From positions 1-64,000 of the forward strand of contig JAUIEP010000012.1 in assembly GCA_030428835.1 (NCBI GenBank): a DNA stretch of 64,000 bases. The letters run 5' to 3'. Made by a program: the position numbers and the translations under genes. This stretch comes from Gammaproteobacteria bacterium (GTDB lineage: Bacteria; Pseudomonadota; Gammaproteobacteria; Pseudomonadales; Halieaceae). This document shows, piece by piece, positions 45,349 through 63,897 of the stretch. The notes under the pieces were generated by a model. The model did not search any database and had not been told where the DNA came from. It saw only the letters and a list, made by a program, of their open reading frames with translations. Every line of letters begins with the position of its first letter. Positions within the stretch are counted from its first letter, which is position 1.

Positions 45349-47673
45349 CTACATCGGCAGGTCGCGGATCTGCTGTTCGAAATACCCGGGCGCCAGCACG
45401 CCTTTCAACTCGTCGAAGGGCAGCGGCTTGCTGAAGAGGTAGCCCTGGATGACGCTCGCCCCGTGCCGGCGCAGGAAGCGGTACTGCTCGTGGGTCTCGA
45501 CGCCCTCCGCGACCAGCGCCAGGCCCAGGCTCTTCGCCATCGCGATGATGGCAACGACCAGGCTGGCGTCGTTGACGCTCTTGTCGAAGTCGACGACGAA
45601 GCTGCGATCGATCTTGAGTTCGTCCAGCGGGAAGCGGCTCAGGTAACTCAGGGAGGAATAACCCGTACCGAAGTCGTCGATCGACAGTTGCACACCCAGT
45701 TCCTTCAGCGCGGCGAGTGACTCGGTAGCGCTCTTGCTGCCGTCCATCATGATGCCCTCGGTCAGCTCCAGTTCCAGGCGCTCGGGCTTGAGGCCCGAGG
45801 CGGCCAGCGCATTGTAGACCTGCGGCACCAGCCCGGCGTTGAACTGCAGCGCCGAGACATTGACCGAGACCTTCGGCAGGACCAGGCCCGCGGCCTGCAG
45901 TTCCACCATCTGGCGGCACGCTTCCCGCAGGCCCCACTCGCCCATTGTGCTGATCAGCCCCATCTCCTCGGCCAGCGGGATGAACTTGAATGGCGGTACC
46001 AGCCCCTGTTCCGGGTGCTGCCAGCGCATCAGGGCCTCGGCGCCGATCACGCGGCCGGTCGCGGTGTCCACCTGCGGCTGGTAGTGCAGGACGAGCTCGT
46101 TGCGCTCGATCGCCTTGCGCAGGTCGTTTTCCAGGGTGAGGCGCTCCACCCCGGCCGCGTCCATGTCGCTGGAATAGAACATGAAGTTGTTCTTGCCCGC
46201 GCCCTTGGCGTGGTACATCGCCGTGTCCGCGGCCTTCAGCAGATCCTCGACGGTCTCCGCATCGCGCGGCGCGATGGCGATGCCGATGCTCGGTGTGACC
46301 ACGAGTTCATGGCCCCCGATGATCATTGGATCCCCGAGCGTTTTCAGCAGGCGTTGTGCCACCTTGCTCGCCGACTCCGGCGTGTCCAGCCGGTTGAGCA
46401 CCAGGGTGAACTCGTCGCCACCGAGTCGTGACACGTCGATCTCGGCGCGGGAATCGGAAAAATGCCCCGCGAGATCACTCTCGCGAATACTCTGGGTCAA
46501 CCGCTTCGCCACCTCGCGCAGGAGGAGGTCGCCGGCGCTGTGCCCCAGCGAGTCGTTGATCCGCTTGAAATTGTCGAGGTCGATGAAGATCAGGCCCAGT
46601 GTCTCGCCGTGGCGCCTGCCCAGGCGCAGCAACAGGTCGAGTTGCTCCGTGAACAACCGCCGGTTGGGCAGCGCGGTGAGGCTGTCGTAGTAGGCGAGGC
46701 GGCGCATCCGGTCCCGGGTCTGGGTGACCTCGCGCACCGCCTGGTTCAATTCCTCGTTGCGGCGCGTCAGCTGGGCGGTGCGCTCCTGCACCTTCATGCT
46801 GAGCAACTGGTGGTCCACGTCCATCTGCGTCTTGTAGGTGTTGAGCCCGCCTATGATGGAATTGAGCAGTGCGACGATGTCGCGGAACTCGGCGTTTTTC
46901 TCCAGCCCCCTCGTCTTGATCTCACGACCGGCGGACACGTCGTCCGCCACCTGCACGAGGGTGCGGAATGGCGCACTGATACGCCGGGTCACGACCAGTC
47001 CCAATGCCATGCACAGCAGCGTGAACGCCCCCGCCAGCAGCAGTACGCTGCTGACCGCGGGAATCGCATTGCGCACGAGCATCGCGCGGCTGAGTCCCAC
47101 GTGTATGTAGCCGACCACGTGGCGGCTGGAACCCGCGCGCGGGGCGACCAGTGTGGCTGCGTAGTTGGCGCGGCTGATACTCCTGTCCTGCGGGTTCACC
47201 AGGGAAAACACCGGTATGGTCATGTCCCACAGCTTGTCGCCGCGCAGGAGTGGGTTGAGCAGGGCGCCGGCCGCGCCGGTCGCTTGCGGCAAATCGGGTA
47301 CCCGGCGCTCGGTGAGGCCGGTTTCCACGGGTGAGGTAGTGCCACGCAGGTGGGGGAAGGCGACCTCCTGCAGCGGGGTGTGCGGGTCAACCACCTGCGC
47401 CATCGGCGTGCCGACCGTGTCGCGCACCACGGCGTAACGCAGCGCGGTGGAACCGGCCATCAGGTGTTCCAGGAACTGCTCCTGGTCGCGGGTGTCGCGA
47501 AAATGGATCGCCGCCGGCAGGGTTAGCCGGCTCTGCACCCGGTCGTAAGTTTGCTGGATGAGGTGGCTGCGCGCGTAGCTGTATTCACGCTGGATAGTGA
47601 TGGCCGCGAAGAGCGTGGCGCCGATCAGAGCGATGGCGATGACCAGCGTGTTGATCTTGCCCGCGACGGTCAT
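45349..47673 (-). CDS. GGDEF/EAL domain membrane protein
   Basis: RLGGDEFTLVL; EALMRWQHPEQGLVPP, ELTEGIMMD, IDDFGTGYSSLSYLSRFPLDELKID. Confidence 0.95.
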   Translation of the reverse strand: MTVAGKINTLVIAIALIGATLFAAITIQREYSYARSHLIQQTYDRVQSRLTLPAAIHFRDTRDQEQFLEHLMAGSTALRYAVVRDTVGTPMAQVVDPHTPLQEVAFPHLRGTTSPVETGLTERRVPDLPQATGAAGALLNPLLRGDKLWDMTIPVFSLVNPQDRSISRANYAATLVAPRAGSSRHVVGYIHVGLSRAMLVRNAIPAVSSVLLLAGAFTLLCMALGLVVTRRISAPFRTLVQVADDVSAGREIKTRGLEKNAEFRDIVALLNSIIGGLNTYKTQMDVDHQLLSMKVQERTAQLTRRNEELNQAVREVTQTRDRMRRLAYYDSLTALPNRRLFTEQLDLLLRLGRRHGETLGLIFIDLDNFKRINDSLGHSAGDLLLREVAKRLTQSIRESDLAGHFSDSRAEIDVSRLGGDEFTLVLNRLDTPESASKVAQRLLKTLGDPMIIGGHELVVTPSIGIAIAPRDAETVEDLLKAADTAMYHAKGAGKNNFMFYSSDMDAAGVERLTLENDLRKAIERNELVLHYQPQVDTATGRVIGAEALMRWQHPEQGLVPPFKFIPLAEEMGLISTMGEWGLREACRQMVELQAAGLVLPKVSVNVSALQFNAGLVPQVYNALAASGLKPERLELELTEGIMMDGSKSATESLAALKELGVQLSIDDFGTGYSSLSYLSRFPLDELKIDRSFVVDFDKSVNDASLVVAIIAMAKSLGLALVAEGVETHEQYRFLRRHGASVIQGYLFSKPLPFDELKGVLAPGYFEQQIRDLPM

Positions 47674-48260: not shown

Positions 48261-49673
48261 TCAGCGCGCGCCTTTGCCGAACAACACCACTTCGACGGTG
48301 TTGAGGGTGATCATGAAGTCCAGGAAGAGACTCTGGTTCTTCACGTAATAGAGATCGAACTGTAGTTTCTGGCGCGCGTCCTCTTCCGACGCGCCGTAGG
48401 GATAACACAGTTGCGCCCAGCCGGTGATGCCGGGCTTCACCGCGTGCCGCGAATTGTAGTACGGGATTGTCTCGGCGAGCTGGCGGACGAACTCGGGCCG
48501 TTCCGGACGCGGTCCGATAAACGCCATGTCACCCGCCAGTACATTGAAGATCTGCGGCAGCTCGTCGATCCGCGTGCGGCGGATGAATGAACCCACCTTC
48601 GTGACGCGGCTGTCGTTCTTGGTCGCCCAGCGCGCCTTGCCGTCGCCCTCGGCGTCCACGCTCATCGAGCGGAACTTGATGACCTTGAAGGCCTTTCCGC
48701 CCAGGCCCACACGCTCCTGCGAGAAGAACACGGGCGACCTGAAGCCGTCTTCCACCCAGATCGCCAGCGCGGTGATGAGCATGATCGGCCAGGTACCCAG
48801 CAGCAACACAAAGCTCGCGGTAATGTCGAAGCAGCGCTTGGTCAGGCCGGAGGAGGCATTACTGCGCAGGTCCTCGGTCAGGGTCATCCAGCCCGGTGTC
48901 GCGAAGTCGACGAGAATCTTGCCGGCCTCGCGCTCGAAGAAGTTGACGAGGTTCAGGACCTTGATGCCCTGCAGGCGGCACTTGAAGAGTTCGTCCGAGG
49001 GGGTGTGATCGCGCTTGTTGTCCAGCGCCACGACGATCTGGTCGATCTCGGTCTGTTTGGCGTACTCGGCGAGCGGCTGGCGCAGGTTGATGATGCGTTC
49101 GCCCGTGATACGAGGCTCCTCCCCGGCAACACGCACAAAGCCGACGATGCTGAAACCCTGGCGGTCTGTCTTGCGGCGCATGGAGCTGGTGATCGTGGAG
49201 GCGGCGGAACCGGAACCGTAAACCAGGACGCGGCTCTTGAACTGGTCGAGATCAGTCAGGTTGGTGAAAGCCTGGTGGCTGATGAGGTTGGCGGCAAAGG
49301 ACGCCACCGTGGCATACAGCAGAACGCCGCTCCAGAGGCTGAAGTCGGGCAGCAGGAGGAAGATACCGCTCATTAACAGCAGAGAGGCGCTGAAGCCGCC
49401 CATGGTGCGGATGAGAATCCCGGAACGGCCTTCGCGCATGCGCGGCTCGTACAGTCCCATCGCGCCCAGGCACAGGACGGAGAGGATGCCGAACGTCAAT
49501 GCGCGACCGGGAATTTCCTGGAAGTGCGCCTGGAACGCGCCGGGTCCCATCTCGATGAAGCAGTGGATGTAGGTGCCGCCGTAGAACGCGAGGACCAGCA
49601 GGGCGACATCAATCAGGGCGAGCCAGTAGAAGGACGTATGTACGTGATGGTTGAATACCCTGACGGTGGCCAT
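48261..49673 (-). CDS. Polyprenyl-phosphate sugar-1-phosphate transferase (EpsB/WcaJ type; resembles PEP-CTERM/XrtA-system transferase)
   Basis: N-terminal TMs, CoA-binding-like domain, C-terminal KRCFDITASFVLLLGTWPIMLITALAIWVEDG...FKVIKFRSM...GSFIRRTRIDELPQIFNVLAGDMAFIGPRPERPEFV. Confidence 0.9.
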   Translation of the reverse strand: MATVRVFNHHVHTSFYWLALIDVALLVLAFYGGTYIHCFIEMGPGAFQAHFQEIPGRALTFGILSVLCLGAMGLYEPRMREGRSGILIRTMGGFSASLLLMSGIFLLLPDFSLWSGVLLYATVASFAANLISHQAFTNLTDLDQFKSRVLVYGSGSAASTITSSMRRKTDRQGFSIVGFVRVAGEEPRITGERIINLRQPLAEYAKQTEIDQIVVALDNKRDHTPSDELFKCRLQGIKVLNLVNFFEREAGKILVDFATPGWMTLTEDLRSNASSGLTKRCFDITASFVLLLGTWPIMLITALAIWVEDGFRSPVFFSQERVGLGGKAFKVIKFRSMSVDAEGDGKARWATKNDSRVTKVGSFIRRTRIDELPQIFNVLAGDMAFIGPRPERPEFVRQLAETIPYYNSRHAVKPGITGWAQLCYPYGASEEDARQKLQFDLYYVKNQSLFLDFMITLNTVEVVLFGKGAR

Positions 49674-50074: not shown

Positions 50075-51322
50075 TCACGCGGGTGGCAGGAAGATTTCGC
50101 GCGGCTCCGGGTGGCTCAGGAAGCCACGGGGACTCGCGCTGAAACCGTACGCCCCGGACTGGTAGACCACCACGAGGTCGCCGGGCGCCGCCCGGGGCAG
50201 GCGCATTTTTGCGCCGAGGATGTCCAGCGGCGTGCAGAGGGGGCCGACCACGCTGACCTCCTCCATTTCAGGGGCCCGCACGCGGTTGCCGAGGCACAGC
50301 GGGTAGTTCTTGCGGATGACCTGGCCGAAATTCCCCGACGCCGCGAGGTGGTGGTGCAGGCCGCCGTTGGTGATGAGGAACACCTCGCCGCGGGACTCCT
50401 TGCGGTCCACCACCTGACAGACGTAGGCGCCGGCCTCCGCGGTGAGGTAGCGGCCCAGTTCCATCACGATCTCTGCGCCGGGCAGTTTCTCGGCTGCCTC
50501 CGCCAGCAGGCCGCGCAGGCCGGCGGCGATAGGCGCCAGGTCGAGGCGTTGTTCACCGGGAAAGTAGGGCACGCCGAGGCCACCGCCGATATTGAGCCAC
50601 GTGACGGCTCGCGGCGCGTCGGCGGCCAGGCGGTATGCGAGTTCGAAGGTGCTCGCCTGCGCCTCCACGATAGCCTCCGGTCGCAGGTTCTGCGAGCCTG
50701 AGAAGATATGGAAGCCGACAAACTCCAGTGGCAGTTCGCCCAGTGCCCGCAGCATCGCGGGCACGCGCTCGGCGTCCACGCCGAAGGGTTTGGCGCCGGA
50801 CCCCATCTTCATGCCCGCCGCTTTCAGTTCGAAGTCGGGGTTGACGCGTATCGCCACCGGCGGCGTCCTGCCCGTGGCTGTCGCCAGCGCGGCGACGCGC
50901 TGCATCTCGCCCTCGGATTCCATGTTGATGATCACACCTGCGTCCACCGCCAGGCGCAGGTCCTCGTCTGACTTGCCGGGTCCGGCGAAGCTGATCGAGC
51001 GCGGCGCGGTGCCCGTGGCCAGGGCGATGCGCAGTTCCCCCGCGGAGGCTACATCCAGCCCGTCGGTGAGGCCGGCCAGGTGGGCGACTACCGCCGGCAT
51101 GGGGTTGGCTTTCATGGCGTAGTGCAGGTGCAGGCCGGCCGGCAGCTCGCGCCGCAGTTTCTCGACCTGCGCCGCCATCACCGCGCCGTCGTACGCGTAG
51201 AACGGCGTCGTTCCCATCTCGCTGGCGATGGCCGTCAGCGGCCGGCCACCGATCTGCAGGCAGTTGTCCTCGACCGGGAACTGCTCCATCGGCGCGTGTT
51301 CCGGCGGCTTCTTGTCACTCAT
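50075..51322 (-). CDS. PLP-dependent decarboxylase, exosortase A system-associated type
   Basis: TPFYAYDGAVMAAQVEKLRRELPAGLHLHYAMKANPMPAVV; GLDVASAGEL; FHIFSGSQNL; NIGGGLGVPYFPGE. Confidence 0.88.
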   Translation of the reverse strand: MSDKKPPEHAPMEQFPVEDNCLQIGGRPLTAIASEMGTTPFYAYDGAVMAAQVEKLRRELPAGLHLHYAMKANPMPAVVAHLAGLTDGLDVASAGELRIALATGTAPRSISFAGPGKSDEDLRLAVDAGVIINMESEGEMQRVAALATATGRTPPVAIRVNPDFELKAAGMKMGSGAKPFGVDAERVPAMLRALGELPLEFVGFHIFSGSQNLRPEAIVEAQASTFELAYRLAADAPRAVTWLNIGGGLGVPYFPGEQRLDLAPIAAGLRGLLAEAAEKLPGAEIVMELGRYLTAEAGAYVCQVVDRKESRGEVFLITNGGLHHHLAASGNFGQVIRKNYPLCLGNRVRAPEMEEVSVVGPLCTPLDILGAKMRLPRAAPGDLVVVYQSGAYGFSASPRGFLSHPEPREIFLPPA

Positions 51323-52917
51323 GTGTCGGCTTCCAGGAAGAGGTCGTGGTACTCCTGCGCGAGCGCGCGGCGATCGATCTTGCCGTTCTGGTTCTGCGGC
51401 AGCGTGTCCCGCGCGATCACCTGCAGCGGCACCATGAAGTTGGGAAGCTCCGCCCGGCAGTGTGCGAGTACCCGTTCCACGAGCGCCTCGGCCGCGCCGT
51501 CCGCGCCCGGGGTGAGCAGCAGCAGGATCGCCTGGCCGAGCGCGCCATGCGGCAGGCCGACGGCCGCCACCTGTGTGCTGCCGCCGGCGGCGTGTGCCAC
51601 TTCCTCCACCTCTGTCGGGCTGACGCGGTAGCCGGACGTCTTGATCATCTCGTCCTTGCGGCTGATGAAGTAGAGATAGCCGTCCTCGTCGCGCACCACC
51701 TGGTCGCCGGAGAACACGGCCAGTTCCGGGGTGGGAATCTCGCCCGGCCGCGTGGGGCAGGGTTTGAAGCGCTCGGCCGTTTTTTCCGGGTCGTTCCAGT
51801 AGCCCATGCTCACCAGCGCCCCGCGATGCACGAGTTCGCCCGGCTCCCCGGCGGCGCATTCGCGGCCGTCCTCGGCCACCACCAGGATCTCCGCGTTGGG
51901 GATAGCCCGGCCGATTGATTCCGGGCGCGCATCGACCTCCCCGGGTGGCAGGTAGGTGGAACGAAAGGCCTCCGTCAGGCCGTACATGAGGAAGACTTGC
52001 GTGTTCGGCAGCGCCTTGCGCAGCGTGCGCGTCGTGGCAACCGGCATGGCGCCGCCGGTGTTGGTGATGTAGCGCAGTCCGGCCACGGCCTCCTCCGGCC
52101 ACGGCAGGTCCTTCAACTGGTTCCACAGCGGCGGCACCGCCGCGAGCCCGGTCACGCGGTAGCGCGCCAGGGCCTTGAGTACGTCCCGCGGCAACAGGTA
52201 ATCCATGAGCACCGCCGAGGCACCCACGGAGAACGCCGTGGTGAGCTGGCTCAGCCCCGCGTCGAAACTCAGCGGCAGTACGGCGAGCAGGCGATCCTCC
52301 GGGGTATTCTCCAGGTAGCTGGCCACGCTGTTGGCGCCGGCGACCATGTTGCGATGGGAGAGCACCACGCCTTTCGGGTTGCCGGTGCTGCCGGAGGTGT
52401 ACAGGATGGCGGCCATGTCCGCATCGATACGGCGGTGTGGTGACCGTGCCGCACCACCGGCAGTGAACTCGCGAAAACTCATGAGCCGGACACCGTCGAG
52501 CGCGAGGTCCTGCGGCAGTTCATCCTCCACCAGCACGACCGTGTGCAGGTCGGGGCAGTGGGCGAGCACCTCCACCAGCGCATCCAGCCGCGGTCGCGCG
52601 GTGAGCAGCACGCGAACGTTGCAGTGCGGCAGGATGTGCGCGAGCTGGCGGGGCTTCAGGAGCGGGTTGACGGGAACGAAACAGGCCCCCGCGGCGGCCG
52701 CGCCGAACAGGCCGAACACGGTCTCGGGCTGCTTGGGCAGGTAGATCGCCACACGCTCTCCGGCACCCACGTCCAGTGCGAGCAGGCCCTGCGCCACGGC
52801 GCGCACCTGCGCGGCGAGCTCCGCGTACGTAAAGGTGGCGTCCTTGTGCAGTAGTGCAGTAGCGTCGGGGGTGACCTCAGCGCTGCGTTCGATGAACTGG
52901 TGAATGAGGTCGGCCAT
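51319..52917 (-). CDS. AMP-dependent acyl-CoA ligase/synthetase, exosortase A system-associated type
   Basis: LYTSGSTGNPKGVVLSHRN; YGLTEAFRSTYLPP; overlaps the decarboxylase by 4 nt. Confidence 0.88.
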   Translation of the reverse strand: MADLIHQFIERSAEVTPDATALLHKDATFTYAELAAQVRAVAQGLLALDVGAGERVAIYLPKQPETVFGLFGAAAAGACFVPVNPLLKPRQLAHILPHCNVRVLLTARPRLDALVEVLAHCPDLHTVVLVEDELPQDLALDGVRLMSFREFTAGGAARSPHRRIDADMAAILYTSGSTGNPKGVVLSHRNMVAGANSVASYLENTPEDRLLAVLPLSFDAGLSQLTTAFSVGASAVLMDYLLPRDVLKALARYRVTGLAAVPPLWNQLKDLPWPEEAVAGLRYITNTGGAMPVATTRTLRKALPNTQVFLMYGLTEAFRSTYLPPGEVDARPESIGRAIPNAEILVVAEDGRECAAGEPGELVHRGALVSMGYWNDPEKTAERFKPCPTRPGEIPTPELAVFSGDQVVRDEDGYLYFISRKDEMIKTSGYRVSPTEVEEVAHAAGGSTQVAAVGLPHGALGQAILLLLTPGADGAAEALVERVLAHCRAELPNFMVPLQVIARDTLPQNQNGKIDRRALAQEYHDLFLEADT

Positions 52918-53256: not shown

Positions 53257-53748
53257 TTGGGCCTGTTCAAGCACAAGCACCGCATACTGTTCGTGTGCAC
53301 GGAAAACCTCTGTCGCTCGCCGATGGCGGAGGGACTGCTGCAGCACTACTTCCGCGAGATGGGCGTGGACAGTGATTTCGAGGTGGCGTCGGCGGGCACT
53401 TCCGCGAGCCAGCCGGGACGGCGACCGGATCCGCGTGCGCAGAAAGTCGCCGGCCAGGCAGGGATCGACCTGTCGCGCATGCGCGCGCGGCGCTTTTGTG
53501 AGCGCGACTTCGACCGCTGCGACATGATTGTGGCCATGGACGAAAACAACCTGCGCGAACTGCAGCGCACCTGCCCCCCTGTGCATCGCGACAAGCTGAG
53601 TTTGTTACTGGACTACCATCCCGATGGTGATCTGACCGAAGTGCCGGACCCGTACTACGGGAGCGCCGAGGCTTTCCAGGACGTTTTCGAGATCATTGAC
53701 GCGGCCGTGTACGGCCTGGTACCGCATATTTCGGCGCGTTTCGCCTGA
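53257..53748 (+). CDS. Low-molecular-weight protein tyrosine phosphatase
   Basis: ILFVCTENLCRSPMAEGLL (CX5R) and VPDPYYGSAEAFQDV. Confidence 0.92.
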   Translation: MGLFKHKHRILFVCTENLCRSPMAEGLLQHYFREMGVDSDFEVASAGTSASQPGRRPDPRAQKVAGQAGIDLSRMRARRFCERDFDRCDMIVAMDENNLRELQRTCPPVHRDKLSLLLDYHPDGDLTEVPDPYYGSAEAFQDVFEIIDAAVYGLVPHISARFA

Positions 53749-53844
53749 CCCAGCTTTACTACGCCTGGGGCAGACGGTACTGTACTGAAAACACGCGGGG
53801 CGCAGTCTTATGACTCCAGAACGTTTGGTTGCCAAGGCCTGTAG

Positions 53845-54657
53845 GTGAGTCCAATGGAGAAAACGAGTACGTCCCTGGTGGAAGACTTCCAGCGTTATTT
53901 CAATCTCGAACTCGCCTCGGATCCGGCCACGCTGGCCGATGTCTACCGCATCCGCTACCGCGTCTACTGCGAGGAATTCGAGTACGAGAACGCCGAGCGG
54001 TTTCCCGACGGACTCGAGACCGACGAGTACGACGGCATATCGCGCCATACCCTGGTCTCCCACACCGCCACCGGCATGCCCGCCGGCTGTGCCCGCCTCG
54101 TGCTGGTGGATGAAGACACCCTGATGCCCATGGAGGAGCACTGCGGCAGCGCGATCGACCAGGACATCCTGCGCGCCTACGACGGGCGCCGCGATTCGAT
54201 CTGCGAATTTTCCCGGCTGGGAGTGGACGGTGCGTTTCGCCGCCGCGCGGGGGAGAAGGCCTCCCGTTTCGGTGAGATCGACGCGATCAACTGCAGCCAC
54301 CGGGAGCAGCGCACCTTTTCCCTGATTGCCGTGGCCACGATTCTCTCGGGGCTCGCCCTGTCAGAGGTGCTCGAGCGCACCCACTGTTTCGCGATGATGG
54401 AGCCGTTCCTGCCGCGCCTGCTCAAGCGCTCGGGGTTGATCGTGCACCTGGCCGGTGACGAGGTCGACTACCACGGCCTGCGCAGCCCCTACTACTGGGA
54501 GACCCGCGAGATGGTTTCCGGCATGGTCGACGACCTGCACGAGTTCTACGAGCACATCCGCACCTCCTTCGAGCAGGGCAACCCGGTGTCCGCCGCCCTG
54601 AACGAGGGTGCGAACGGCCAGCCGGACGTGCGCATCGCCCCGGATTCCATTCCCTGA
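53845..54657 (+). CDS. Exosortase/PEP-CTERM system-associated GNAT-like acyltransferase, copy 1
   Basis: VYRIRYRVYCEEFEYENAERFPDGLETDEYD; CEFSRLGVDGAFRRR; start GTG 53845 or ATG 53854. Confidence 0.82.
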   Translation: MSPMEKTSTSLVEDFQRYFNLELASDPATLADVYRIRYRVYCEEFEYENAERFPDGLETDEYDGISRHTLVSHTATGMPAGCARLVLVDEDTLMPMEEHCGSAIDQDILRAYDGRRDSICEFSRLGVDGAFRRRAGEKASRFGEIDAINCSHREQRTFSLIAVATILSGLALSEVLERTHCFAMMEPFLPRLLKRSGLIVHLAGDEVDYHGLRSPYYWETREMVSGMVDDLHEFYEHIRTSFEQGNPVSAALNEGANGQPDVRIAPDSIP

Positions 54658-54734
54658 AGCCCGGCAATATGTAGTACGGATTCGCGGGTTAGTTCCCCGC
54701 CGTCCGCAATTATTTTCCACGCGCCGCCCCGATG

Positions 54735-54756
54735 CCTGAAAGTCTGTATTTTCAGG
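54735..54756. promoter_or_regulatory. Inverted repeat between the two acyltransferase genes
   Basis: CCTGAAA-N8-TTTCAGG; TTGACT-like -35 hexamer at 54771. Confidence 0.35.
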
Positions 54757-54911
54757 GCGAAATCGCTGATTTGACTTTACTCCACACGGGCTAGGCTTTA
54801 CTGTTGCGCATAGGGGTAGTGTGAATTAATCACGCGGTCATAAATGCTCGGTACTGTTGGCTACCAGCGGCTGTGTCAGTACCTGTTTAGGGGAACCCGA
54901 GTACATCTCGA

Positions 54912-55703
54912 GTGGCAGAATTTCACCGTTATTGCAATCTCTCTCTAGCGAATTCTCCCGGTCAGCTGGATGACGTATTCCGCATCCGCTACAGGGTCTA
55001 TTGCGAGGAATTCGGCTACGAGGATCCGGAAAACCATCCCCATGGGCTGGAATCCGACGAATTCGACGCCTTTTCCCGGCACACACTGGTGACGCACGCG
55101 GCGAGCGGCGTGCCCGCCGGCTGCGCCCGCCTTGTGTTAGCGGACGAGGAGCGGGAACTGCCGATGGAGCGGTTCTGTGGCGCCGCCATCGATGACGACC
55201 TCCTGCGCGCCTTCGACGGCTGTCGCGAGACTATCTGCGAATTTTCGCGCCTGGGCGTCGACGGCGCCTTCCGCAGGAAGACCGGTGAGAGAGTCTCCCG
55301 GTTCGGTGAGATCCGCGGCATCGACTGGAGCCGCCTCGAGCGGCACAAATTTTCCTCGCAACTCGCCATCTCCACCATCCTGTCGGGGCTCGCCCTGTCC
55401 GAGGTCCTCGAGCGTACCCACTGCTTCGCCATGATGGAGCCCTTCCTGCCGCGCCTGCTGCGCCGCTCCGGGCTGGTCGTGCACAAGGCCGGTGACGAGA
55501 TCGACTACCACGGCCTGCGCCGTCCCTACTACTGGGAGACGTGCGAGATGGTGTCGGGGCTGGTGGAGGAGCTGCAGGAGTTCTACCAGCATATTCGCGA
55601 TGCCTTCGCGGAAAACGAGCCTGTCCTCGCGGAGCTGAACACGACCTCCGCGGGGTTGCCGGACGTACGCATCGGCGACGCACTCCTGGCGGGCGCCAGC
55701 TAG
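54912..55703 (+). CDS. Exosortase/PEP-CTERM system-associated GNAT-like acyltransferase, copy 2
   Basis: VFRIRYRVYCEEFGYEDPENHPHGLESDEFDAFSRHTLVTHAASGVPAGCARLV; colinear with copy 1 throughout. Confidence 0.82.
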   Translation: MAEFHRYCNLSLANSPGQLDDVFRIRYRVYCEEFGYEDPENHPHGLESDEFDAFSRHTLVTHAASGVPAGCARLVLADEERELPMERFCGAAIDDDLLRAFDGCRETICEFSRLGVDGAFRRKTGERVSRFGEIRGIDWSRLERHKFSSQLAISTILSGLALSEVLERTHCFAMMEPFLPRLLRRSGLVVHKAGDEIDYHGLRRPYYWETCEMVSGLVEELQEFYQHIRDAFAENEPVLAELNTTSAGLPDVRIGDALLAGAS

Positions 55704-55845
55704 CCAGTCCCGCGCTATCCACTCACCACTATCCGGTGGCCAGCTTGTAAAGCCGGTGGGCGCTGCATACTATTGTCGGGTCCCTTCGGGCCGTGTTGGT
55801 CCTTAAAGGAGCATCGGGGCTAGCACGCTGTCACAGGGGAGCAGA

Positions 55846-57807
55846 GTGTCGGGCATGTCCTTCGACTATCAAGAAGCCTTTTCGCGCAACCTGGGCTGGG
55901 TGACTCTCGCCGAGCAGGAGCGGTTGCGGGGTTTTCGCGTCGCTATCGCCGGTCTGGGGGGGGTCGGGGGCAGTCACCTGACGACGCTCTCGCGCCTCGG
56001 GATCGGGGCGTTCAATATCGCGGACTACGATCGCTTCGAACTGCCCAACTTCAATCGCCAGGCGGGAGCCAACGTCAACACGCTGGGCCGCGAAAAACTC
56101 GACGTCATGAGCGCGGCCGCGAGAGCCATCAACCCCCATATCGACATCCGGCGGTTCCCCGAGGGTGTGACGGAAGACAACCTCGACGACTTTCTCGAAG
56201 GTGTCGATATCTATGTCGATTCGCTTGATTTTTTCGCCCTCGATATCCGCGCCCGCGTGTTCGCGGCATGCCGTGAGAAGGCTATCCCCGCGGTTACCGC
56301 CGCACCCCTTGGCATGGGTTCGGCCCTGTTGTGTTTCATGCCCGACGGCATGAGTTTCGAGCAGTATTTCCGGCTGGACGGGCAGCCCCCCCAGGAAAAG
56401 GCGCTGCGCTTCATGCTGGGGCTTGCACCGTCTTCCCAGCACATGGGCTACATGGTGCAGGACGCCATCGACATGGCGGCAAAGAAGGGCCCCTCAACGG
56501 CGATGGGCTGTGAGCTCTGCGCGGGTTTTGCCGGCACCTACGTGCTGAAGATACTCCTGGGGCGCGGCGAGGTGTTCGCCGCGCCCTACGGCGTTCACTT
56601 CGATGCCTACCATAACCGGGTGACCACCACATGGCGGCCGTGGGGCAATAACAATCCGCTGCAGCGCATCGGCCTTGCGATTGCGCGCAAGCGTGTCATG
56701 GGCGGCGGTGCCGGGGAACCCTCGCCGCCGCGCGAACGCGCGGTGGAACGCGTGCTCGACCTCGCGCGGTGGGCACCGAGCGGCGACAACGAACAGCCCT
56801 GGCGCTTTGAGATCACCTCGGATACCACGTTCACAGTGCATGGCCACGACACGCGCGACTGGTGTGTGTATGACCTCGACGGCACTTCCAGCCAGATCGC
56901 CATCGGCGCCATGCTGGCGACCGCCGCGATAGCCGCGAGCGGCGAGGGATTGCGCCTCGACTGGCAGTTGCGCGCCGGCGCGCCCGAGGAAAAACCGCTT
57001 GTCGACGCAACGCTCACACCGGATGGCGACATCCGGCCCGATTCCCTGTTGCCGTTTATCACCGAGCGCACGACACAGCGCCTGCCGTTCACGCAGCGAC
57101 CCCTGAGTCCCGGCCACAAGGCGCAACTCGAGGCGGCGGTGGGGGAGGGCTACCGCGTGCTCTGGCTGGAGGGCGAACAGCGCAAGCGGGTGGCGAAGCT
57201 GTTGTTTCACAACGCGCACATCCGCCTGAGTACGCCCGAGGCCCACGCGGTGCACCAGCGCAACATCGAGTGGGGGGCGCGCTTCAGCGAGGATCGCCTG
57301 CCCGAGTTCGCGCTCGGCATCGACGCGCCCACACGCAAGGTCATGCGCTTTGCGCTCGGCAGCTGGCAGCGTGTGCAGTTCCTCAACCGCTTCTTTGCCG
57401 GCACCTGGTTGCCGCGATTACAAATGGACCTGCGCACCGGGCGCAACTGTGCCGCCCATTTCGTCATTCTGGCGGAGCGCGCGCCGCAGGGTATCGCGGA
57501 CTATTTCGCCGCCGGCGCGGCGATGCAGCGCTTCTGGCTGCGCGCGACAGCGCTCGGCCTGCAGTTCCAGCCCGAGATGACCCCGCTGATTTTCTCCCGC
57601 TACGTGCGCGAGGGACTGCGCTTCACCGTGGTTGCGGCCGAGCAGGAACTGGCAGGCAAGCTGGCGAACGACTTCAACAAGCTGGTCCCGGACGACCACG
57701 AACCCGCCCAACGCGTTTATATGGGCCGCGTCGGGTTCGGACCGACGCCCACCTCCCGCTCCATTCGCCCACCGCTGGAAAAGCTCCTGGTGCAGCCGGG
57801 CGGATGA
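55846..57807 (+). CDS. ThiF/E1-like adenylyltransferase fused to nitroreductase-like domain
   Basis: N-half: VAIAGLGGVGGSHLTTLSRLGIGAFNIADYDRFELPNFNRQAGANVNTLGREK; C-half: ERAVERVLDLARWAPSGDNEQPWRFEI...GIADYFAAGAAMQRFWLRATALGLQFQPE. Confidence 0.87.
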   Translation: MSGMSFDYQEAFSRNLGWVTLAEQERLRGFRVAIAGLGGVGGSHLTTLSRLGIGAFNIADYDRFELPNFNRQAGANVNTLGREKLDVMSAAARAINPHIDIRRFPEGVTEDNLDDFLEGVDIYVDSLDFFALDIRARVFAACREKAIPAVTAAPLGMGSALLCFMPDGMSFEQYFRLDGQPPQEKALRFMLGLAPSSQHMGYMVQDAIDMAAKKGPSTAMGCELCAGFAGTYVLKILLGRGEVFAAPYGVHFDAYHNRVTTTWRPWGNNNPLQRIGLAIARKRVMGGGAGEPSPPRERAVERVLDLARWAPSGDNEQPWRFEITSDTTFTVHGHDTRDWCVYDLDGTSSQIAIGAMLATAAIAASGEGLRLDWQLRAGAPEEKPLVDATLTPDGDIRPDSLLPFITERTTQRLPFTQRPLSPGHKAQLEAAVGEGYRVLWLEGEQRKRVAKLLFHNAHIRLSTPEAHAVHQRNIEWGARFSEDRLPEFALGIDAPTRKVMRFALGSWQRVQFLNRFFAGTWLPRLQMDLRTGRNCAAHFVILAERAPQGIADYFAAGAAMQRFWLRATALGLQFQPEMTPLIFSRYVREGLRFTVVAAEQELAGKLANDFNKLVPDDHEPAQRVYMGRVGFGPTPTSRSIRPPLEKLLVQPGG

Positions 57808-59069
57808 CCAAGCCGTCGGGAAGGGGCGGCCCGCGCCTGCTCGTATTCTCCGAAGCCGTCACACTGGCCCACATCGCGCGACCCTACGCCCTGGGCGCGG
57901 AACTCGCCCAGGCCGGCTGCGATGTGCACCTCGCGCGGCACCCGCGTTACGACCAACTGTTGGGCAACGCGCTGCCGCAGCGCCACGCGATCCACTCCAT
58001 CAGCCCCGGGGCGTTCACAGGCGCGCTCGCGCGCGGCGCCCCCCTGTACGACCTGCAGACGCTGCAGTCCTATGTTGAAGACGACCTGCGGGTAATCGCC
58101 GAGGTCGGGCCGGACGCAATACTGGGTGACTTCCGGCTGTCCCTCGCCGTCAGCGCCGCGGTCGCGGGCGTGCCGTACCTGGCCATCGCCAACGCCTACT
58201 GGTCACCCTATTGCCGCCAGCGTTATCCCGTGCCCGAGTTGCCCTTCGTCAGGGTGCTGGGGCCGGCGGCCGGGCAGTTGCTGTTCGACGCGGTGCGGCC
58301 GTTCGCCTTCGCACTGCACTGCCTGCCGATGCACCGCCTGCGGCGGCACTACGGACTGCCCAGCCTCGGCGCCGACCTGAACCGCGTGTACACCCACGGC
58401 GACTACACCCTCTATGCCGACGCGCCGGGCCTGTTCAGCATGCGCGCGCTGCCGGCCGCTCATCGCTTCATCGGCCCGGTGAACTGGTCGCCGGAGGTCG
58501 CGCCGCCGCCGTGGTGGCACGAGGTGCCGGCCGCCACGCGATGCGTCTATGTCACGCTCGGCAGTTCGGGGCGGGCCGACCTGCTGCCGACGGTGCTCGC
58601 GGCGCTCGCCGAACTGGATGCCACGGCGCTCGTGTCGACGGCGGGGGCGCCATTGCCCGCCGACCTGCCGGACAATGTCTATGCGGCGCCCTACCTGCCC
58701 GGCGCCGACGCCGTTGCGCGCGCGGACGTCGTGTTGTGCAACGGCGGCAGCCCGACCAGCCAGCAGGCTCTCCTGCACGGCGTGCCCGTGCTCGGCCTGC
58801 CGGGCAATCTCGACCAGTACCTCAACATGTCCGCTGTGGTGCGCGCGGGTGCGGGGCGGATGCTGCGTTCCGGCAGGCTTCGCGCCGATGAACTGGCACG
58901 CCAGTTGCGTGGCCTGCTTGACGATACGGGCAGCCGCGCCGCCGCGGGCAGGCTCGCCGCCTCCTGGCGCGCGCTCGACCCGGCCGCCGCCTGCGGCGAG
59001 GTCCTGCGCGAGGCCCTCGGCCGCGGTACGGTGGCGCATGCGACGCCCGGCACGGAGGTCTACCGATGA
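57804..59069 (+). CDS. UGT-like (GT1-type) glycosyltransferase
   Basis: CVYVTLGSSGRADLLPTVLAAL; APYLPGADAVARADVVLCNGGSPTSQQALLHGVPVLGLPGNLDQYLN; ATGA overlap with upstream CDS. Confidence 0.85.
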   Translation: MTKPSGRGGPRLLVFSEAVTLAHIARPYALGAELAQAGCDVHLARHPRYDQLLGNALPQRHAIHSISPGAFTGALARGAPLYDLQTLQSYVEDDLRVIAEVGPDAILGDFRLSLAVSAAVAGVPYLAIANAYWSPYCRQRYPVPELPFVRVLGPAAGQLLFDAVRPFAFALHCLPMHRLRRHYGLPSLGADLNRVYTHGDYTLYADAPGLFSMRALPAAHRFIGPVNWSPEVAPPPWWHEVPAATRCVYVTLGSSGRADLLPTVLAALAELDATALVSTAGAPLPADLPDNVYAAPYLPGADAVARADVVLCNGGSPTSQQALLHGVPVLGLPGNLDQYLNMSAVVRAGAGRMLRSGRLRADELARQLRGLLDDTGSRAAAGRLAASWRALDPAAACGEVLREALGRGTVAHATPGTEVYR

Positions 59070-61366
59070 CCGCGCGGCGCGACCTGCCCGACCTGTTGGT
59101 GCGGCGGGCGTACCTCATCGCGGCGTTCAACCTGGCGCTGCTGGCGCTGGTCGCCCTCGGCGCCGGCCAACTGGAGGTGCACGCCGGGATCAGGGTGTTG
59201 TTCAGCGCGGATGACCCCAACCTGCTCGCCGAGATCCACATAGAGGAGACCTACGGCAAGGAGGACAACATCCTGGTCGTCGTGGATGGCGGGGAGCGCA
59301 CGCTGTTCCGCCCCGGCGGACTGCGACTGCTCGACACACTGACCACACAGGCGTGGCAGATTCCGCACTCCCGCCGCGTCGATTCACTGGTCAACTACCT
59401 GCACACCCAGGTGGACGGCGACGACCTGATGATCGAGGCGCTGGTGCCGGATGTCACGGCGCTGGACGCCCCCGCCATCGAGCGTGTGCGCAGCATCGCG
59501 CTCGCGCAGCGGACGCTGGTCGGCCGGCTGGTATCGGCCGACGGCCACACCGCCGCGGTCAACATCAGCCTGAACCTCGATGAGGCCGGCAAGGCGCAGG
59601 CGCTCGCCGAAGCGGTGCAGGCCGCGCGCGAACTGGTGGCGGCGGCGGCCGCGGAACACCCGGACGTCGAGTTGCACCTGGCGGGTCTTGCGCTTACCGA
59701 ACAGACGCTGGCGGAGGTGACGGCAACGGACGGCGCGTCGCTCATCCCGTTGCTGTTCGTCATTGTGCTCGTGACTGCCGCGCTGTTCCTGCGTTCGCTG
59801 CTCGCCGCGCTGTGTACCCTCGTGACCGTGCTTCTCAGTATCGCGGTGGGCATGGGAGTTGCCGGCTGGCTGGGTTACGGTATCAACAGCGTCAGCGTAT
59901 CGGCGCCCACGATCATCGTGACGCTGGCGGTGGCCGACTGTATTCACCTGCTCAGCGCCTTCCTCGCGCGGTTGCGCGCGGGGGATGACCGGCGCGCCGC
60001 GCTGCTTGCGAGCCTGCGGCACAAGCTGTACCCGATCGTCCTCACCAGCGTCACGACCGCCGTCGGTTTCCTCAGCATGAACTTCAGTGACTCGCCCCCG
60101 TTCGGCCAACTCGGCACGATCTCCGCCGCGGGTGTCCTCGGCGCCCTGTGGGTCACTCTCGGCGTGTTGCCCGCGCTGCTGTTATTGCTGCCGTTCCGCG
60201 CCGCGGCGGGCGCCGGGCGGGGCTGGCAAATGCGCTGGCTCGCGGACTGGGTGACGCGGCACAGTGCGCTCGTACTCGTCGTGGGGGGCGTCGTGATCGC
60301 GGTGTTAGTCAGCATTATCCCGCGCATGGAACTGAACGATGACCCGGCCGGCTATTTCTCGGAGGATATCGCGCTCACGCGAGCTCTCGCCGTCGTTGAA
60401 GAAGAGCTGGCCGGTACCCAGCATGTCTACTTTTCCCTCGATTCGGGGGAGCCCGAGGGCGTCGCCGACCCCGCCTTCCTCGAACGCGTGGCCCGGTTCG
60501 TCGCGTGGTTGCGCGCACAGCCGGAGGTGACCAACGTCGACGCCTTTACCGACACCCTGCAGCGTCTCAACCAGGTGATGCACGGGGATGATCCGGACTG
60601 GTACAGGTTGCCCGATTCGCGCGAGCTGGCCGCCCAGTACCTGTTGTTGTACGAGATTTCCGTGCCCTATGGCCAGGACGTTACCTACCAGGTGAGCACG
60701 GACAAGTCGTCGCTCAAGGTGTCGGTCGTGCTGCATAACCAGAAATCACGCGTCGTCGACTTCGAGCGGCGCGCACGCGAGTGGCTGGCGGCGCACGCGC
60801 CGCAACAGGTTACACGCGGAGCGGGCCACGCCGTGAGTTTTGCCAGCGTCGGGCTGCGCAATATCTACAGCATGCTGTACGGCGCGGCGTTCGCGATTGC
60901 GCTGGTTTCGCTGTGCCTGCTGCTGGCGTTTCGCTCGCTGCGCTTCGGCGTCGTGAGCGTGGTTCCCAACCTGTTTCCGGCCCTGCTGGCGCTGGGGCTG
61001 TGGAGCGCGTTCGTGCAGGAGGTGAACATGGCGGCCTCGGTCGTCTTCGCGGCCACCCTCGGCATCGTCGTGGACGACACCACGCACCTGCTGGTCGCCT
61101 ACCGCGAAGCGCGCCTGCGCGCGGGATTGACCGCGGTCGAGGCGCTGCGCGCGACCTACGCCAGTGTGGGGCAGGCGCTGGTGACCACCAGTCTCGCGCT
61201 CGCCGCGGGTTTCGCGGTGCTCACGCAGTCCGACTTTTCCGTCAATGCCACCAGCGGCAGCCTGATGGCCATGACCATTCTCATCGCGCTGCTCATGGAC
61301 CTGTTGTTCGTGCCGGCGCTGTTGCTGCGCATCGATCGCTGGCTGGTGCCCGCGCGCCCCGGTTGA
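59066..61366 (+). CDS. RND/MMPL superfamily transporter
   Basis: 766 aa, about 12 TMs in two blocks; ADCIHLLSAFLARLRAG, IVVDDTTHLLVAYREARL; ATGA overlap with upstream CDS. Confidence 0.9.
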   Translation: MTARRDLPDLLVRRAYLIAAFNLALLALVALGAGQLEVHAGIRVLFSADDPNLLAEIHIEETYGKEDNILVVVDGGERTLFRPGGLRLLDTLTTQAWQIPHSRRVDSLVNYLHTQVDGDDLMIEALVPDVTALDAPAIERVRSIALAQRTLVGRLVSADGHTAAVNISLNLDEAGKAQALAEAVQAARELVAAAAAEHPDVELHLAGLALTEQTLAEVTATDGASLIPLLFVIVLVTAALFLRSLLAALCTLVTVLLSIAVGMGVAGWLGYGINSVSVSAPTIIVTLAVADCIHLLSAFLARLRAGDDRRAALLASLRHKLYPIVLTSVTTAVGFLSMNFSDSPPFGQLGTISAAGVLGALWVTLGVLPALLLLLPFRAAAGAGRGWQMRWLADWVTRHSALVLVVGGVVIAVLVSIIPRMELNDDPAGYFSEDIALTRALAVVEEELAGTQHVYFSLDSGEPEGVADPAFLERVARFVAWLRAQPEVTNVDAFTDTLQRLNQVMHGDDPDWYRLPDSRELAAQYLLLYEISVPYGQDVTYQVSTDKSSLKVSVVLHNQKSRVVDFERRAREWLAAHAPQQVTRGAGHAVSFASVGLRNIYSMLYGAAFAIALVSLCLLLAFRSLRFGVVSVVPNLFPALLALGLWSAFVQEVNMAASVVFAATLGIVVDDTTHLLVAYREARLRAGLTAVEALRATYASVGQALVTTSLALAAGFAVLTQSDFSVNATSGSLMAMTILIALLMDLLFVPALLLRIDRWLVPARPG

Positions 61367-62272
61367 TCAGGCGGGCCTGCGCCACAGTACCGAGGGTTCC
61401 ATCGCCGACGGCAGGAAGTAGCCGAACAATGCCCAGAACAGCAGTTGCGGTCGCCGCGCGACGATGCCTGCCGCGTCTGGGGCGAGGGCCGCGTCCAGGT
61501 TGTGGCCGTGGGCGCGGTTGAACTCGTCGAGGAAGCGGTAGTTGGAGAAGGGCATGAAGGTGTCCATGTAGGAGCGTCGCCGTGTCTGCACCAGTTCCAG
61601 GCCGAGTTCCAGGCCCACGTCGATCAGGCTCTGCTGCGTCAGGATCACCCGGTGAAAAGGCTGGTGCAGGCGCATGATGTGCGGCGTGAGGTCCGCCATG
61701 TCGTCCACGCCCTGTGCGTCCGCGGTGCCGACATAGAGCAGTCCGCCCGGCCGCGTCAGCTCGAGGCACTCGCGCATCATCGCTTTGGGGCTGTCCACGT
61801 GTTCGATGACATCGTTGGCTATCACGCAGTCGTAGCCGCCCTCCGGCGGTTCGGGTCGCGCGGCGTACTCGCGCACGAAGGGGTCGTAGCCGGTGATATT
61901 GTTGAAGCCCTGTTCGCCCAGGAACCGGAGGAAGACGGCGTTGCCGCAACCGAAGTCGAGGATGCTGTCAGCGCTCGACACTCCGTGGGCCGTGAGCCGC
62001 CCCAGCAGGTTGCGATACGTCCCGCGCGCGAAGATGTCCAGCGTGCGGTCGCGGTTCAAGGGATAATCACTGTAAATGTCCGCCATGTCCACCGGGTCCA
62101 TCGCATGCAGCGCGCGGCACCCGGGGCAGCGCCAGATGCGGAACACCTCGCCCTTGAAGCGCTCGGTATTGCCGCGCACGGTACCGCAGTGCGCACTCTC
62201 GACGGGGTCCGCCACGTGGCCGCAGACCAGGCAGGTCATGGCGTCGCTCTGGCGGTCTGTCGCATCTTGCAT
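61367..62272 (-). CDS. Class I SAM-dependent methyltransferase with N-terminal zinc-ribbon-like Cys motifs
   Basis: CLVCGH...CPGCRALH; SILDFGCGNAVFLRFLGEQGF; CVIANDVIEHVDSP. Confidence 0.88.
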   Translation of the reverse strand: MQDATDRQSDAMTCLVCGHVADPVESAHCGTVRGNTERFKGEVFRIWRCPGCRALHAMDPVDMADIYSDYPLNRDRTLDIFARGTYRNLLGRLTAHGVSSADSILDFGCGNAVFLRFLGEQGFNNITGYDPFVREYAARPEPPEGGYDCVIANDVIEHVDSPKAMMRECLELTRPGGLLYVGTADAQGVDDMADLTPHIMRLHQPFHRVILTQQSLIDVGLELGLELVQTRRRSYMDTFMPFSNYRFLDEFNRAHGHNLDAALAPDAAGIVARRPQLLFWALFGYFLPSAMEPSVLWRRPA

Positions 62273-62277
62273 CGTTG

Positions 62278-63897
62278 TCACCTTGCCGTCAGCTTGCCTG
62301 CCAGTCGCAGGCTCAGCGCCGCGACTGTCAGCGAGGGATTGATGCCGCCGCTCGAGGGAAACACCGAGCTGTCGGCGATGTACAGGTTGTCGACACCGTG
62401 GACGCGATGCTCCGCGTCGCAGACGCTGTCGCGGGCGCTGCTGCCGAAGCGGCAGGTGCCGCACGCATGGGCGAGGCGCTCGTTGTTTTCCGCCTGCTTC
62501 AGCAGCAGGTACCGGTAGGGCTTGAGCTGCCGCGCCATCACGGCGCGAAATTGCGCGATGCGCTCCCGCTCCCCCTGTCCCGGCCGATACTGTAGCGCCA
62601 GGCGGTGGTGCCCGTCCTCCGCCAGGGTAACGCGGTTGTCGGGGAAGGGCAGGTCTTCCAGGGTGCTCGCCAGCAGCACGCTGCGCGCGAGCAACTTGCC
62701 GAGGCCGAAGCGCACGGCGGGACTGGCGAGGCCGAACAGGGCGGCGACCAGGCGGCCCGCGTCGCGCCGCAGCTCGCGTTGCATGTCCGCGACCAGCAAC
62801 GCGGCGGGGGGCAGGTAGCCGAAGGACTGCACCGAGCCCAGCTTGCCCGACTCGCCCTGGTAGAAGTCATTCCAGGCGATCTGCTTGATCAGCTCTCCCG
62901 GCACCGGCCGTTGCCGGGTGAACACCGCGTAGAGATCGACGTAGTGGCGCATCAGGTACCTGCCCACGAGGTCGGACTGGTTGCCCAGCCCGCGCGGCCA
63001 CGCGCTGCAGGCGGAGGCGAGGAGGAGCCGCGGGCTTTCCAGTGCGCCGGCCGCCAGGAAATAGCGCTCCCCGCGCAGCGCCAGCGGTGCGCCGTCGCGC
63101 ACACAGTGCAACTGCTGTACGCGCTCGCCATCGGCCTCGATACGCGTGACCTCGCAGTCGTCGAGCAGGACCGCGCCGTGCTGCCGCAACGCGGGTACCA
63201 GGCAGGTGCTCGCGCTGTCCCGCTTGCAGGGCCTGTCGCAGAGGTAGCTCTGGCAGGTGCGACAACCCGCGCTGAAGTCACAGGCCAGCGGCAGTGCATA
63301 GGGATGCAAACCGCGCTCGGCGAAAAAGTCGAACAGCTCGCGGTTGGGCGGCGACAGCGCCGGCGCCGCGGGGAATTCGCCCTGGTCCGGGCCGCGCATC
63401 GGGTCTCTGCCGCCGCGTACCCCGTAAAGCTGTTCCGCCGCGGCGTAATACTCGCGCAGCTCCGCGTGGCCCACGGGCCAGCGCTCGGGCAGCGCCGCGC
63501 CGGCGGCCGGGTGGTTGCCCGCCGGCGCAAAGTCTTCGGGGAAAAATCGTTCGAGGGCCATACCGTACAGCGCGGTTGAGCCGCCGGTGCCGGTACCGAT
63601 AAAGGGTGTGAAGGCGCGGGGGCGGGCGGCCGCGCTGCTGTCGACGATCTCATCCGGGTAGCGGCCCCCGGCGCGCAGCGCCTGTGTGGTTGACTCCCCG
63701 GCGGCATCCGGGTGGCGTTCAGGAAAGTCGCCGCGCAGGGCGCCACCCTTGTCCAGGTGGGAGCGGCCGCGCTCCACGAAGAGCACACGGCGCCCGGCCC
63801 TGGCCAGCGCATAGCCCAGCGTGGCGCCGCCCATGCCCGTGCCCACAATGATGTCGTCCCAGCGCGCGCCGGCGATGTCCTGATAGGAAATTGGCAT
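62278..63897 (-). CDS. GMC-type FAD-dependent oxidoreductase
   Basis: DDIIVGTGMGGATLGYALARAGRRVLFVERGR; CGTCRFGSSARDSVCDAEHRVHGVDNLYIADSSVFPSSGGINPSLTVAALSLRLA. Confidence 0.93.
   Translation of the reverse strand: MPISYQDIAGARWDDIIVGTGMGGATLGYALARAGRRVLFVERGRSHLDKGGALRGDFPERHPDAAGESTTQALRAGGRYPDEIVDSSAAARPRAFTPFIGTGTGGSTALYGMALERFFPEDFAPAGNHPAAGAALPERWPVGHAELREYYAAAEQLYGVRGGRDPMRGPDQGEFPAAPALSPPNRELFDFFAERGLHPYALPLACDFSAGCRTCQSYLCDRPCKRDSASTCLVPALRQHGAVLLDDCEVTRIEADGERVQQLHCVRDGAPLALRGERYFLAAGALESPRLLLASACSAWPRGLGNQSDLVGRYLMRHYVDLYAVFTRQRPVPGELIKQIAWNDFYQGESGKLGSVQSFGYLPPAALLVADMQRELRRDAGRLVAALFGLASPAVRFGLGKLLARSVLLASTLEDLPFPDNRVTLAEDGHHRLALQYRPGQGERERIAQFRAVMARQLKPYRYLLLKQAENNERLAHACGTCRFGSSARDSVCDAEHRVHGVDNLYIADSSVFPSSGGINPSLTVAALSLRLAGKLTAR

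Follow-up and report, generated by a model that had tools for sequence, protein, structure and literature searches.

A block of genes at positions 53257–63897 was analysed in a stretch of 64,000 nucleotides (the window; positions 1–64,000 of contig JAUIEP010000012.1, GenBank assembly GCA_030428835.1) from a gammaproteobacterium of the Halieaceae. On the forward strand, the block starts with a gene for a Wzb-like low-molecular-weight protein tyrosine phosphatase (53257–53748; PF01451, E 2.6e-42), which is found at the equivalent position in 12 related loci. This is followed by genes for two N-acyl amino acid synthases (NAS; both TIGR03694): AT1, with a LuxI/FeeM fold (53845–54657, with a possible start ATG at 53854), and AT2 (54912–55703). 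The next gene (55846–57807; assigned by profiles and an AlphaFold2 model) encodes an oxazolone-synthetase-like fusion of a ThiF cyclase and an FMN-dependent oxidase (FDO), and is followed by those for a GT1-like glycosyltransferase (57804–59069; UGT/MGT-like, with an EryCIII-like C-terminal domain, PF06722) and an MMPL/RND exporter (59066–61366; PF03176). Two accessory genes lie on the reverse strand, encoding an S-adenosylmethionine-dependent methyltransferase (61367–62272; Methyltransf_23) and a GMC-family FAD oxidoreductase (62278–63897; profile match). An earlier note, made from the sequence alone, had listed these genes except that for the phosphatase, with the last two converging from the other side and with ATGA stop-start overlaps; all its open reading frames were found and their domains matched by profiles, and both overlaps are present, at 57804–57807 (synthetase and glycosyltransferase genes) and at 59066–59069 (glycosyltransferase and MMPL genes).

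The fusion protein has the architecture of an oxazolone synthetase of the OxzB/TrzS type, a ThiF domain fused to an FDO of the nitroreductase superfamily, with the adenylation site intact. Its 653 residues are divided into the ThiF cyclase (about 1–285, with PF00899 at 13–261) and the oxidase (about 293–650), in which PF00881 matches residues 293–323 and the Acg family model NF047509 residues 303–580. The AlphaFold2 model (predicted local distance difference test score, pLDDT, 85.4) has Acg (PDB entry 2ymv) as its top PDB match, followed by ThiF, AclA, UBA5 and PaaA; a literature search on AclA (PDB entry 9egb) gave nothing relevant. By sequence, the nearest solved proteins are TcdA and ThiF, TcdA being an E1-fold enzyme that performs a carboxylate cyclisation. 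The adenylation-site residues, i.e. the GxGGxG motif, N68, N70, R71, Q72, K84 and D128, are invariant in 26 homologues. D128 is located within the stretch aligned to the DAID of TcdA, and the counterpart of this ATP-contacting aspartate is D217 of TrzS. R460 and Q575 are also invariant and, from their similar spacing, may correspond to R540 and Q651 of TrzS. The curated model PRK08223 matches the fusion; scores below the MoeB and ThiF equivalog cut-offs led to the rejection of a role as molybdopterin or thiamine E1. When OxzB/TrzS was sought in a plasmid collection, only the relatives in Nitratidesulfovibrio vulgaris and Bdellovibrio turned up. Separately, in the Candidatus Contendobacter locus (L040, 485–3484), the fusion gene is followed by a repetition of nitroreductase-domain fragments, which may be due to duplication or an assembly fault; a metagenome-assembled genome labelled as Bizionia, Bacteroidota (L066), contains a fragment 64% identical to the fusion, on a misbinned contig or by transfer; and a ThiF homologue outside the class (G495:C1:2895910-2896773) comes from a genome in which the exosortase A (XrtA) model has no match.

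Both acyltransferases score above the TIGR03694 cut-off of 111.95 bits (AT1 198.9, AT2 187.3 bits) and above the PF21926 cut-off of 27 (33.4 and 36.9, respectively), and the AlphaFold2 model of AT1 (pLDDT 84.5) matches acyl-homoserine lactone synthases and FeeM (PDB entry 2g0b). They are tandem duplicates that arose within the lineage (tree support for the pair 99/97), and the branch of AT2 has nearly four times the length of that of AT1 (0.37 versus 0.10). AT2 was rejected as a decaying copy, because the residues invariant in the family are retained in both proteins; with these residues kept, the long branch may reflect a change of substrate.

Sixty loci with a related ThiF(-nitroreductase) gene were compared, some of them cut by contig ends; 30 have at least 8 kb on either side. 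In 38 of the 60, the ThiF gene has an acyltransferase gene of the TIGR03694 or FeeM type no more than 1.5 kb away. XrtA-system markers are found in 26 of the 30 loci with full flanks, acyltransferase genes in 22, LolA-like genes in 14 and the glycosyltransferase gene in 11. On plasmid pDV of N. vulgaris, FeeM, ThiF and nitroreductase domains are joined in one protein of 989 amino acids (DVU_RS16045, L070:7062-10031), annotated only as a ThiF family adenylyltransferase, the gene of which adjoins XrtA chain-length, export, TIGR03013 and PEP-CTERM genes. Because the pair recurs in most of the 60 loci, in other species, the order of acyltransferase and ThiF genes is not a matter of chance. Of the gene set that the earlier note had grouped together, the acyltransferase and ThiF-nitroreductase pair thus co-occurs strongly in related genomes, where its absence would have spoken against that note. 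The glycosyltransferase family recurs moderately (20 of the 60 loci, immediately downstream of the synthetase gene in 12), strong MMPL homologues (above 150 bits) are less frequent (9 of the 60), and the GMC oxidoreductase and methyltransferase are rare, with one clear case.

In the glycosyltransferase, H23, D109 and the NGG and N-x-D-Q motifs, comprising the catalytic histidine and the nucleotide-sugar motifs, are invariant in 15 sequences, and its best PDB match is CalG1. The LolA-like genes of the 14 full-flank loci are accompanied by an MMPL gene in eight and by FtsX-type permeases in six, without overlap. The latter six loci (L025, L031, L034, L037, L043 and L065) also contain a DUF1302 gene and, in five of the six, an ATP-binding cassette ATPase; from its gene content, the FtsX-type permease set would appear to be an alternative exporter. 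The one clear case for the accessory genes is the Sedimenticola locus L016, the only one of the 60 in which the operon of E1-nitroreductase, GMC and methyltransferase genes recurs (48–52% identity), with the GMC gene before the methyltransferase gene, as here. Methyltransferase homologues are present in two of 339 genomes sampled from the class, the present genome included, and their recurrence beside the fusion gene is unlikely to be due to chance, the gene being nearly absent from the sample. A conserved GMC partner was sought in congeners and not found (best identity 38–39%), so the GMC and methyltransferase genes were classed as accessories. A GMC paralogue in the same genome (C309:17476-19032) is 38% identical, and the matched stretch holds an in-frame TAG.

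To the left of the block, on the reverse strand, exosortase A markers are located: a GGDEF-EAL cyclic di-GMP protein (45349–47673), the position of which is conserved in related XrtA loci, the XrtA/PEP-CTERM-system undecaprenyl sugar transferase EpsB2 (48261–49673; TIGR03013, 537.8 bits against a cut-off of 393), the exosortase A-associated pyridoxal phosphate-dependent decarboxylase (50075–51322; TIGR03099, 591.7 against 478 bits) and the exosortase A-associated AMP-forming acyl-CoA ligase (51319–52917; TIGR03098, 765 against 592 bits). What had previously been named as a possible link to an exosortase and extracellular polysaccharide (EPS) system is a whole neighbourhood of XrtA-system genes. 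Just past the window, some 340 bases beyond the GMC gene, an EDSAP-1 PEP-CTERM protein is encoded (64239–65270; 206 bits, cut-off 100), preceded at about 80 bases by a perfect sigma-54 type site, TGGCAC-N5-TTGCT (64144–64159). No such site was found before the acyltransferase-synthetase block; matches in the window occur at chance number and elsewhere. The contig (C264) ends at 65309, and the XrtA of this genome is located on another one, C76 (28509–29258; 333.4 against 208 bits), which also encodes PrsK, PrsR, two PrsT proteins, an AMIN protein and the only strong LolA-like protein of the genome. In Halioglobus and a relative (L010 and L011), the synthetase gene is followed by genes for a glycosyltransferase, a hexapeptide acyltransferase, PrsT, an EDSAP PEP-CTERM protein, AMIN, LolA and MMPL. 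Because C76 starts with PrsT-AMIN-LolA, matching this order, C264 and C76 probably form one locus, with the MMPL gene placed beside the glycosyltransferase gene in this lineage.

In the class sample, the ThiF(-nitroreductase) profile, which was built from relatives of the window protein and also matches some ThiF-only genes, has matches in 33 of the 339 genomes (25 families), and XrtA is above its cut-off in 62; a strict threshold was used for these counts. Both are present together in 31 of the 33 genomes (Fisher odds ratio 137, p 2.5e-24), and in 12 genomes they share a contig at a distance of no more than 50 kb. The TIGR03694 synthase is present in 42 genomes; XrtA accompanies it in 23 of the 25 that also have the ThiF gene, versus three of the 17 that do not (p 1.2e-6). 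Eight genomes with the ThiF gene lack TIGR03694, and six of these have a FeeM-type acyltransferase. The converse association fails, half of the XrtA genomes being without a ThiF match. In this sample, XrtA is much more closely linked in its distribution to the ThiF(-FDO) gene than to the acyltransferase named after the exosortase, which suggests that, within N-acyl amino acid metabolism, the oxazolone-type branch is what belongs to XrtA systems.

The core of the block has characterised counterparts. OxzA/OxzB of Pseudoalteromonas rubra produce tyrazolones and phenazolones, and TyzA/B/C of Mycobacterium tuberculosis C12 tyrazolone (PMC10404671, PMC12856293). TrzA/TrzS (Rv1356c/Rv1355c) of Mycobacterium produce tryptazolones, with ATP-dependent cyclisation before O2-dependent desaturation (PMC12856293). 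Producers of 2,3-dehydrotyrosine lipids have the same three activities (PMC12479983). The earlier statement that no characterised product was known for this gene combination thus fails for the core, since an acyltransferase with a ThiF-nitroreductase fusion is the architecture of an oxazolone pathway (PMC10404671, PMC12856293). OxzA/OxzB share the N-acyltransferase and the ThiF-nitroreductase fusion (OxzB was compared by its published description), but no exosortase locus, glycosyltransferase or MMPL protein is described for them in the literature cited. TrzA/TrzS likewise have the acyltransferase upstream of a ThiF-FDO fusion, the nearest solved FDO being Acg (2ymv); however, their products are short-chain tryptophan derivatives, and the genes nearby are cyclic di-GMP genes, with no PEP-CTERM genes described. 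The Tyz system has the three activities as well, and an adjoining MMPL gene, mmpL9, but its ThiF and FDO proteins are separate and no glycosyltransferase is mentioned. The stieleriacine (Stieleria), thalassotalic and kyonggic clusters contain NAS, ThiF and nitroreductase genes, and Stieleria also a methyltransferase; the Stieleria maiorica cluster contains a PEP-CTERM gene and is close to EPS genes (PMC7293339, PMC12479983). In these clusters, the ThiF and nitroreductase genes are separate, glycosyltransferase and MMPL genes are not described and the products are open-chain.

A linkage of NAS to exosortases (cited in PMC4897644, PMC11072679 and PMC7293339) has been on record since 2011 with no mechanism attached to it; such acyltransferases are found there near exosortase genes, as here, and the citing passages name neither the ThiF-FDO partner nor the closer association of that partner with XrtA. 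For Stieleria, a link to EPS-associated sorting was suggested (PMC7293339), a ThiF gene is tabulated in the PEP-CTERM EPS cluster of Rubrivivax (PMC3684757), and in Methylomonas, polysaccharide band formation requires a NAS of this kind (PMC11072679); disruption of the NAS gene is on record for Methylomonas sp. LW13. In the literature searched, no paper was found in which a general connection is drawn between oxazolone synthetases and XrtA, or in which a glycosyltransferase and MMPL/LolA proteins are described as additions to such pathways.

From the order of the genes, their domains and folds, the conserved motifs and the joint occurrence with XrtA observed here, we consider it likely that the forward-strand block directs the synthesis, glycosylation and export of an N-acyl amino acid lipid, as part of an XrtA/PEP-CTERM envelope-matrix locus. 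By analogy with characterised homologues, AT1 and/or AT2 would N-acylate an amino acid, probably an aromatic one, with a fatty acyl chain from coenzyme A or acyl carrier protein; the ThiF domain would then adenylate the carboxylate with ATP, leading to cyclisation to the oxazolone, and the flavin oxidase domain would desaturate the alpha-beta bond with O2. Gene order, conserved motifs and co-occurrence suggest that the GT1-like enzyme O-glycosylates this product, or its hydrolysed dehydro-amino-acid form, and that the MMPL pump carries it over the inner membrane; its onward transport may then fall to a LolA-like protein whose gene lies in another part of the genome. The GMC oxidase and the methyltransferase would add strain-specific modifications. 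The product is best read as an N-acyl (dehydro)aromatic amino acid, or the oxazolone formed from it, that carries a sugar and is exported into the envelope or matrix; the putative amino acid, chain and sugar are deduced from gene order and conservation only. The earlier proposal of an N-acyl-amino-acid-derived molecule with carboxylate activation by the E1 domain gains support from the OxzB/TrzS-type architecture, and glycosylation and MMPL export, also proposed there, are probable.

Several points weigh against the pathway as drawn. The score of the fusion for the Rv1355c/TrzS equivalog NF005901 is 201.7 bits, below the cut-off of 476, so it represents a related family and not a TrzS orthologue, and its substrate may differ. 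The GMC and methyltransferase genes are wanting in nearly all related loci. The XrtA statistic is valid for this clade only, because of the origin of the profile, and the Fisher p overstates independence, the genomes of the 25 families being related by descent. In a sample from the phylum (279 genomes, three matches common to the class sample), there were six matches, four with XrtA above cut-off, one with a weaker exosortase match and one with none. Finally, the oxazolone ring may be a mere intermediate, because stieleriacine-type producers show open dehydrotyrosines and no oxazolone (PMC12479983). The end product might then be an open-chain N-acyl-2,3-dehydrotyrosine of the thalassotalic, kyonggic or stieleriacine type, O-glycosylated on its phenol, with a transient oxazolone that eases desaturation and is then hydrolysed. 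We regard this as a serious contender, somewhat short of an even chance. No oxazolone was found in the stieleriacine, thalassotalic and kyonggic producers, which have NAS, ThiF and nitroreductase genes, and M. umbonata, without the latter two, has only saturated kyonggic acids; in TrzS, cyclisation precedes desaturation and the oxazolone is readily hydrolysed; acid hydrolyses oxazolones; and a GT1-like enzyme requires a hydroxyl or comparable group as its acceptor. However, the oxazolone itself was detected in P. rubra, M. tuberculosis, M. smegmatis and RHA1, and its absence from other producers may stem from acid or methanol extraction.

About two thirds of the loci lack the glycosyltransferase, which also counts against the proposed pathway and would fit a shorter one, with the N-acyl oxazolone or dehydro-amino acid as its last product, in which the glycosyltransferase and MMPL proteins are mere neighbours with other XrtA-locus functions, e.g. 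EPS modification. So would the position of the MMPL gene, adjacent here and about 8–9 kb away in Halioglobus-type loci. This is rather unlikely, given the ATGA overlaps at the present locus, the same glycosyltransferase family directly after the fusion in 12 loci from several families, the MMPL gene or FtsX-type permeases that accompany every LolA-like gene in the full-flank loci, and mmpL9 next to the M. tuberculosis tyz cluster. The E1 fold is also used by UBA5, MccB and PaaA, all among the fold or sequence matches, but activation of a ubiquitin-like or RiPP-like protein or peptide carrier instead of a lipid is highly improbable: the genes of at least 60 codons beside the fusion are those for the acyltransferase and glycosyltransferase, with no carrier-type gene in that size range; the acyltransferase adjoins in most loci and is fused in N. 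vulgaris; and the fusion matches PRK08223 and stays below the MoeB and ThiF equivalog cut-offs.

With the glycosylated N-acyl amino acid lipid as the preferred reading, what appears to be new is the tie of an oxazolone-type core to XrtA, together with the glycosyltransferase and MMPL/LolA additions; the core chemistry and the NAS-exosortase linkage were already known. At the level of a long shot, the N-acyl oxazolone or dehydro-amino-acid glycolipid could be an integral component of the exosortase A system, for example an envelope lipid or matrix partner of the PEP-CTERM proteins that XrtA processes, or of their EPS. MMPL or FtsX-type permeases, together with LolA-like carriers, would deliver it, and a reactive oxazolone might even acylate an amine on a PEP-CTERM or EPS partner. 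The role of acyl-oxazolones in physiology has been called a major unresolved question (PMC12856293). The presence of an oxazolone-type core in an XrtA biofilm-matrix locus, with a glycosyltransferase and a lipid exporter, suggests a job for a lipid class so far without one.

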